From: Nitrospirae bacterium CG2_30_53_67
GTDB lineage: Bacteria > CG2-30-53-67
Reading direction: 5' to 3'
Length of the DNA stretch: 10,358 bases
Assembly: GCA_001873285.1 (NCBI GenBank)
Contig: MNYV01000174.1
Span: forward strand, 1 to 10,358
Shown here: positions 2,535 through 5,595 of the stretch, piece by piece
How the letters are laid out: every line of letters begins with the position of its first letter
Numbering within the stretch: position 1 is the first letter of the stretch
Translations under genes and position numbers: made by a program
Notes under the pieces: generated by a model
The model's input: only the letters and a program-made list of their open reading frames with translations
What the model was told of the DNA's origin: nothing
The model's database searches: none

Positions 2535-2876
2535 ATGAGTATAAGAAAGAGCCTTTACAGCGTCCGCAAGAAACTGCGGCCCGTAAAAAAAGAAAGCGGG
2601 AAATCCGTTGACGAGATCGTCCGGGAACTGAAAAAAATGCGCCCTGAAAGTGAAGGCTACAGAGAGCGTTCGCTTAAGATTCACGGGCTCATCTGCGCCA
2701 AATGCGCAAGGGAGTTTGAATACAAAGACAGACATCTCCTGACCGTACACCATAAGGATGGAAATCACATGAACAACCCGTCTGACGGGTCCAACTGGGA
2801 GAACCTGTGCATTTACTGCCATGATGATGAGCACAGCCGGGGACGTCTGGGGAGCTATCTGAGCGATCAGGAATAG
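2535..2876 (+). CDS. YajD-like HNH-domain protein
   Basis: This is a 113-residue product with a basic, coiled N-terminus and an HNH/zinc-finger module. In order come CAKC, a short spacer with REFEYKDRHLLTVHHKDGNH, then NNPSDGSNWENLCIYCHDDEHS. The two CxxC pairs would bind a structural zinc, and the HH pair plus the later N and H form the HNH metal site. The pattern matches the small stand-alone E. coli YajD type, whose cellular role is not established, rather than restriction or homing nucleases. ATG at 2535 is preferred. An in-frame TTG at 2499 would add 12 residues, but neither start has a clear Shine-Dalgarno sequence. A weak TTGCAT (2499-2504), 17 nt, TATCTT (2522-2527) pair would place transcription start almost on the ATG, so a leaderless mRNA is possible. 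It is transcribed divergently from the LOG gene, with 154 bp between starts. Confidence 0.82.
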   Translation: MSIRKSLYSVRKKLRPVKKESGKSVDEIVRELKKMRPESEGYRERSLKIHGLICAKCAREFEYKDRHLLTVHHKDGNHMNNPSDGSNWENLCIYCHDDEHSRGRLGSYLSDQE

Positions 2877-2903
2877 ATCAAGAGATCTTTCAACCGTTAA
2901 GTA

Positions 2904-3092
2904 AGTGGTCCTGTTCGTAAATATGGTAACGTACCGAGAGGGTCGTAGGGCGGTCTCATCAAGGCGCGCGACTGAGGCGTACCCACTGTGGTACACCGCA
3001 AGGAGTGCAACGCCGAGGAGATCGCCCTACGGCACCTGTCTGCAATGGCACAGGCAGGCTCGAATGCGATCGTATTTACGAATAGGGCCACT
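2904..3092 (+). repeat. 189-nt imperfect palindromic element able to fold as a multi-helix RNA
   Basis: The outer arms 2904-2927 and 3069-3092 form 24 consecutive pairs when read as plus-strand RNA: 20 Watson-Crick and 4 G-U, no mismatch. A second helix pairs 2942-2966 with 3011-3033 (two G-U pairs, one A-G mismatch, a two-A bulge). A capping hairpin has stem 2979-2983/2990-2994. A side hairpin pairs 3035-3042 with 3051-3058 (8 bp, one G-U), and a short 2935-2938/3059-3062 helix may link them. On the minus strand the G-U pairs would become A-C mismatches, so the fold favours plus-strand RNA. The element ends at 3092 and the ribosome binding site AAGGAGG of the lipoprotein gene starts at 3093. 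It could be a mobile palindromic repeat (MITE-like), a cis-acting leader, or both. I do not recognise it as a named riboswitch. Confidence 0.7.
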
Positions 3093-3099
3093 AAGGAGG
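3093..3099 (+). promoter_or_regulatory. Ribosome binding site of the BamE-like lipoprotein gene
   Basis: AAGGAGG lies 5 nt before the ATG at 3105 and directly after the right arm of the palindromic element. It fixes the start and argues against a longer reading frame running back into the repeat. Confidence 0.8.
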
Positions 3100-3104
3100 A
3101 AACC

Positions 3105-3443
3105 ATGATCAAGAATAGAAAGCCGGCTGTCTTTGCAATCCTCATCGTTTTGCTTTTGTCCATCACCGCCGCCGGGTGCCTCACGGTCGGCCATGAATTT
3201 CGTGTCGACGCCGTATCCAGGATCCGCATCGGCGAGACCACCCGCCTGCAAATCGGCGATATCTTCGGGCCGCCGTGGCGTACGGGCATAGAAGACGGGA
3301 AAACAACATGGACCTACGCCCATTACCGTTACTCCATGCTCGGAGAATCCATGACCAGGGACCTGGTCATCCGCTTTGATGATCATGGTGTCGTGACCTC
3401 TTATACCTTCAACTCATCTTATCCGGAAGACCAGAGGCGGTAA
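3105..3443 (+). CDS. Small BamE/SmpA-OmlA-like outer-membrane lipoprotein
   Basis: The product has 112 residues. A basic start (MIKNRK) is followed by a hydrophobic stretch (residues 8-20) and a lipobox-like TAAGC with the lipidation cysteine at residue 25, so a lipoprotein is predicted. The mature part has the SmpA/OmlA pattern: an I-R-I-G-E-T start, about ten residues to IFGPPWRTGIEDGKTTWTY, then beta strands ending in a charged tail. BamE proteins of this fold assist the Bam complex in outer-membrane protein insertion, but many small lipoproteins share the domain without that role, and no bam genes are nearby. The start is chosen from the AAGGAGG 5 nt upstream; a GTG at 2988 would read through the palindromic element and is rejected. 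The last 25 bp overlap the 3' end of the convergent DUF523 gene. Confidence 0.78.
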   Translation: MIKNRKPAVFAILIVLLLSITAAGCLTVGHEFRVDAVSRIRIGETTRLQIGDIFGPPWRTGIEDGKTTWTYAHYRYSMLGESMTRDLVIRFDDHGVVTSYTFNSSYPEDQRR

Positions 3444-5510: not shown

Positions 5511-5540
5511 CTTGCCCCCTCTTATTTAAGAGGGGGCAAG
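5511..5540. repeat. 13-bp perfect hairpin of a dispersed intergenic repeat type
   Basis: 5511-5523 (CTTGCCCCCTCTT) pairs perfectly with 5528-5540 around a 4-nt loop ATTT. C-rich/G-rich hairpins of this kind occur as dispersed repeats in many environmental bacterial genomes (recalled pattern, not checked). No T-run follows on either strand, so it is not a typical terminator, though it could act as a transcription barrier between the minus-strand and plus-strand genes. Confidence 0.6.
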
Positions 5541-5595
5541 GGGGAGTTATCCCTCTGAGGGGCAAGGGGGAGTTATCCCTCTGAGGGGCAAGGGG
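5534..5595. repeat. Tandem repeat, 26-bp unit, two exact copies plus a 10-bp partial
   Basis: Copies occupy 5534-5559 and 5560-5585 with no difference between them. A third begins at 5586 and diverges after GGGCAAGGGG. The first copy shares its start with the right arm of the adjacent hairpin, so the array seems to have grown from the hairpin arm by slippage or recombination. Confidence 0.85.

Follow-up and report, generated by a model that had tools for sequence, protein, structure and literature searches.

The DNA analysed here (the window, 10,358 nt in its entirety) carries two co-directional genes, encoding a YajD-family HNH nuclease and a BamE-domain lipoprotein, that are separated by a strongly folding near-palindrome (Table 1). 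Re-examination of the sequence and its fold confirmed what a preliminary description had reported of the 24-bp outer helix (arms 2904-2927 and 3069-3092): it departs from Watson-Crick pairing at exactly four positions, all of them G-U in the plus strand. The two further G-U pairs noted in the second helix are also as described, as are the side and capping hairpins. The minimum free energy of the plus strand is -110.3 kcal/mol, compared with -67.2 +/- 4.5 for shuffled sequences (z = -9.5). The element had further been said to stop exactly at the AAGGAGG of the lipoprotein gene. That motif does directly abut its 3' end, following position 3092; the element proper, however, is 187 nt and ends at 3091, A2904 and T3092, the outermost pair, being part of a target duplication. 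The window copy is composed of a 163-nt repeat and a nested 24-nt palindrome. Elsewhere in the window, a 26-bp unit (GGGGCAAGGGGGAGTTATCCCTCTGA) is present as two perfect copies in tandem (5533-5584).

Table 1. Features of the element and its surroundings in the window, with related copies at other loci
Feature	Position	Strand	Basis or remark
YajD-family HNH nuclease gene, upstream	2535-2876	+	also neighbours the empty site of the sister species
Target-site duplication TAA, left copy	2902-2904		TAA / GTGG...CCAC / TAA
Palindromic repeat, very probably mobile and MITE-like, window copy	2905-3091	+	ends set by 72-copy alignment and flanking TWA repeat
Left terminal inverted repeat (left arm of outer helix)	2905-2927	+	
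Second helix, left arm	2942-2957	+	
Capping hairpin GGCGTACC...GGTACACC	2976-2997	+	
Second helix, right arm	3018-3033	+	
Nested REP-like palindrome CCTGTCTGCAATGGCACAGGCAGG ("side hairpin")	3035-3058		absent from most repeat copies; dispersed independently elsewhere in the genome
Right terminal inverted repeat (right arm of outer helix)	3069-3091	+	
Target-site duplication TAA, right copy	3092-3094		its AA opens AAGGAGG
Ribosome binding site AAGGAGG, lipoprotein gene	3093-3099	+	sequence
BamE-domain lipoprotein gene, downstream of insertion	3105-3443	+	PF04355, E 2e-6
Small palindrome, examples at other sites	G000 C75:9458; G000 C104:39459		
Longer-class copies of the element	L087:6841-7108; L148:6727-6989; L099:5528-5790		

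The palindrome belongs to a dispersed family with a 163-nt consensus and ends GTGGYCCTRTTCGTAAATA, represented by some 85-90 copies in its own 2.36-Mb genome (183 contigs). A DNA search of this genome, in which 40 of 108 candidates were scored, returned 71 matches, some of them fragments of single copies, and the 19-nt end, at three mismatches or fewer, occurs 90 times in forward and 88 times in reverse orientation, against one each for the control. The preliminary description had proposed a covariance-model search of the genome and its relatives, in which many copies at varied sites would indicate a mobile repeat; this was the outcome. A model built from 72 copies matched 138, 47, 58, 32, 19 and 86 times in six genomes of the host family (some sites being matched on both strands), and gave zero matches in two genomes of a sister family. 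When about 85,000 genomes, one for each species, were scanned for exact matches to the end, it proved almost confined to the window's group, namely the records FCS_M_CG2-30-53-67_02, Hainich-H32-bin143-1, Dive96_bin10.193 and CG_2015-17_54_20, with a small number of copies in MAGs of Desulfobacteraceae and Desulfosarcina. CG2-30-53-67 has been described as a candidate phylum (PMC11406059), and these records suggest that the window falls within it. Searches of plasmids, phages and viral contigs for the element gave no match.

Both flanks of the copies are mostly TWA (95 copies), and the middle base is identical in all 53 pairs with TWA on both sides, comprising 32 TAA/TAA, 21 TTA/TTA and no mixed TAA/TTA pairs. 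The flanking TWA is a target duplication of 3 bp, set between C and G (C-TWA-G). In the sister species of the same genus (G001), the orthologous HNH and lipoprotein genes lie about 18 nt apart and the element is absent, the pre-insertion site of the window being ...AAGTAAGGAGG...; three more sites are polymorphic for insertion between the two genomes, one of which aligns poorly. That the element stops abruptly at the ribosome binding site reflects the target, whose TAA sits in TAAGGAGG. Copies are intergenic and occupy every gene arrangement (tandem in the same orientation as the genes, 23; tandem opposite, 35; convergent, 19; divergent, 22), with no significant orientation preference at tandem sites (p = 0.15, using a simple reading-frame gene caller). 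The mobile palindrome that the preliminary description had offered as one of two alternatives is thus borne out by numerous copies, varied sites, lack of preferred orientation and an ortholog with no element upstream.

Some copies are themselves composite or altered. The side hairpin of the window copy is a separate dispersed, REP-like palindrome of the form CCTGCCTGTGC-loop-GCAGACAGG, with variable loops, whose position varies among copies of the large repeat. Strict copies number 22 in the genome of the window and 9 and 17 in two relatives (the palindrome being dispersed in G000, G003 and G005), with none by the strict pattern in three others (G001, G002 and G004). A longer class of the element, 263-268 nt with an extra multi-hairpin insert, was seen in two genomes from different genera of the family, and a 20-nt insert (ACTTGTACTCGGTTTACCGGT) at a constant place in about ten copies (at L200, L195, L198, L049 and L160, for example) marks a subfamily. 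Very short hairpins (about 26 nt; GTGGYCCTGTTCGTAAATAGGGYCAC) with TWA-like flanks, located near L129 1465 and L115 6353, are apparently collapsed copies.

The G-U pairs that first drew attention to this element can be compared across 123 copies. Three of the four in the outer helix (5-159, 9-155 and 20-144 in element numbering) are the commonest state of the family, present in 86, 103 and 81 copies respectively, and the fourth (22-142) is rare, occurring in five. Being fixed family-wide, the three count as one observation inherited from the founder; where a founder is common to all copies, such fixed pairs in any single copy can mimic RNA selection. The single-copy pattern is in itself weak evidence, because, if either strand may be picked, four transition-type differences will all be G-U with a chance of about 1/8. 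Among rare exceptions to Watson-Crick pairing, G-U and A-C are equally represented, both as singletons (14 versus 12) and as distinct states found in five or fewer copies (37 versus 35), and either is exceeded by other mismatches (54-82). The preliminary description, which had proposed selection on a plus-strand RNA fold, had itself named A-C mismatches as frequent as G-U pairs as a finding that would refute it, and the proposal is not supported. Uncorrected per-cell counting of G-U and A-C had suggested a strong bias, but inherited states entered that count many times over, and the bias dwindled once it was based on distinct rare states. Parsimony on a tree gave 168 G-U versus 111 A-C events (138 versus 89 on terminal branches), with the excess mostly at G-C pairs (123 versus 76) and less at A-U pairs (44 versus 35); this tree joins closely related, possibly recombining copies and was hence given less weight, and we attribute the mild excess to common, homoplasious states. 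Compensatory double changes, found at 12 of 46 pairs, could also be produced by correction within a DNA palindrome.

These results bear directly on the notion of a cis-regulatory leader, or undescribed structured RNA, whose plus-strand fold would control how the lipoprotein gene, or a gene family, is translated. The position of the element between co-directional genes, its termination at a Shine-Dalgarno sequence and its very stable fold speak for such a leader. However, the sister-species ortholog of the lipoprotein gene is free of the element; the copies stand in every gene context and in either orientation, rather than before one gene family in one orientation; pairing is not preserved against A-C among rare states, apart from the mild parsimony excess; and Rfam, at curated and loose thresholds, yielded nothing above threshold. 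A sub-threshold match to a microRNA model (23 bits; cut-off, 100) was rejected as chance. A leader function for the family is largely refuted, and we consider it highly improbable that the element acts as one. A more modest proposal, compatible with a mobile repeat, is that this one insertion has been co-opted locally, its transcribed hairpin altering mRNA stability or insulating translation of the lipoprotein gene. The flanking genes are co-directional and adjacent in the empty site, so that read-through is plausible, and precedent exists in the ERIC and NEMIS repeats, for which effects of transcribed hairpins on mRNA stability or translation have been reported (PMC2229807). The insertion is not conserved, however, and transcription of the hairpin here is putative; we view co-option as conceivable but rather unlikely.

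Strand asymmetry raises a different alternative. Of 123 copies, 117 give a more stable fold from the plus than from the minus strand (mean -96.3 versus -82.1 kcal/mol); the plus strand also prevails in 110 of 113 with DNA parameters and in 90 of 113 when the inner core is folded without its arms, and the advantage recurs in the unrelated cores of Desulfobacteraceae copies and in the 263-nt class. Together with the reappearance of the fixed end G-U pairs in Desulfobacteraceae copies, this would be consistent with a mobile repeat that needs one strand folded, as single-stranded DNA or RNA, in order to move, ancestral masters being selected on the plus strand and resident copies decaying freely. 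Against this, founder inheritance explains the plus-strand advantage across copies, and the independent core types, about three and all with identical ends, are too few to decide on the asymmetry of the core. Moreover, inverted termini together with a 3-bp target duplication are what DDE-type integration of double strands usually leaves behind. The distribution of Y1 transposase genes also counts against single-strand mobility, since they are present in 11 of 11 genomes searched, element-free ones included: none of the 20 Y1 loci read has an intact element, and one (L276) has a lone end. We judge this explanation improbable, and marginally more so its stricter form, whereby mobilisation proceeds through a folded single strand, and movement depends, despite the target duplication, on a strand-specific fold that fixed G-U (G-T) pairs in the core and the ends maintain. 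An ancestral strand-specific role is possible.

The characteristics of the family are instead those of miniature inverted-repeat elements, or MITEs: near-identical dispersed copies with no transposase gene, the 163-nt consensus being too short for one; terminal inverted repeats with outer arms of 23 bp; a target-site duplication; and insertion polymorphism, with empty orthologous sites. Bacterial MITEs such as RUP, NEMIS/Correia and ERIC are likewise non-coding, 100-200 bp long, bounded by terminal inverted repeats and target duplications, found in many intergenic copies and highly folded if transcribed (PMC2229807). By their descriptions these are mostly TA-ended and A+T-rich (PMC2229807), and the present element is set apart by its 3-bp TWA duplication, G+C-rich body, ends of 19-23 bp and different host group. 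Its 3-bp duplication at TNA also fits the target rule of the IS1031 group of the IS5 family (PMC12016507), from which it differs in having no transposase and in its ends (GTGGTCCTGTTCGTAAATA, versus GAACCTGTCTAGTATCT in one member; PMC12016507); none of the six host-family genomes contains either of the IS5/IS1031-type domains, PF13340 and PF13586. REP sequences mobilised by Y1 transposases (RAYTs) offer another likeness, in that both are palindromic intergenic repeats in genomes with Y1 genes and the nested 24-nt hairpin is REP-like. The element differs from them in its inverted ends and target duplication, and no Y1 locus among the 20 read is flanked by the element or the 24-nt hairpin. No transposase locus bearing the ends of the element was found in the loci read, around PF01609 hits or in viral contigs, the genomes being fragmented. 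Where two ends lie 0.6-4.5 kb apart, no matching duplication flanks them, and the long frames in the pairs inspected were, by eye, not those of transposases. Eight DDE transposase loci were rejected as a source, their inverted repeats being different, and an IS1182-family copy (L165) has ends (GAGCCTGTTGCACAAAT) just loosely similar.

We conclude, with a probability of roughly 0.9, that the stretch before the lipoprotein gene represents one copy of a mobile element that is MITE-like and non-autonomous. This quasi-palindrome of 163 nt, whose terminal inverted repeats are conserved, inserted at TAA between the HNH and BamE-domain lipoprotein genes, duplicating those 3 bp as the flanks show, and was presumably mobilised in trans by a transposase recognising its ends. 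Its strong fold would then be a consequence of near-palindromy, and the G-U pattern would represent a left/right end difference fixed in the founder plus one rare variant; copies appear to decay after insertion without clear regard to strand, and a second small palindrome is nested in the window copy. What weighs against this conclusion is that no autonomous partner was found, that an explanation in terms of DNA only does not require the plus-strand folding advantage, and that parsimony gives an excess of G-U. The striking fold of this locus is accounted for by a mobile repeat: it is no dedicated RNA switch but a mobile repeat of a sort common in bacteria, from a family that is itself undescribed. 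The family could serve as a tracer of insertions in a bacterial group about which little is known.
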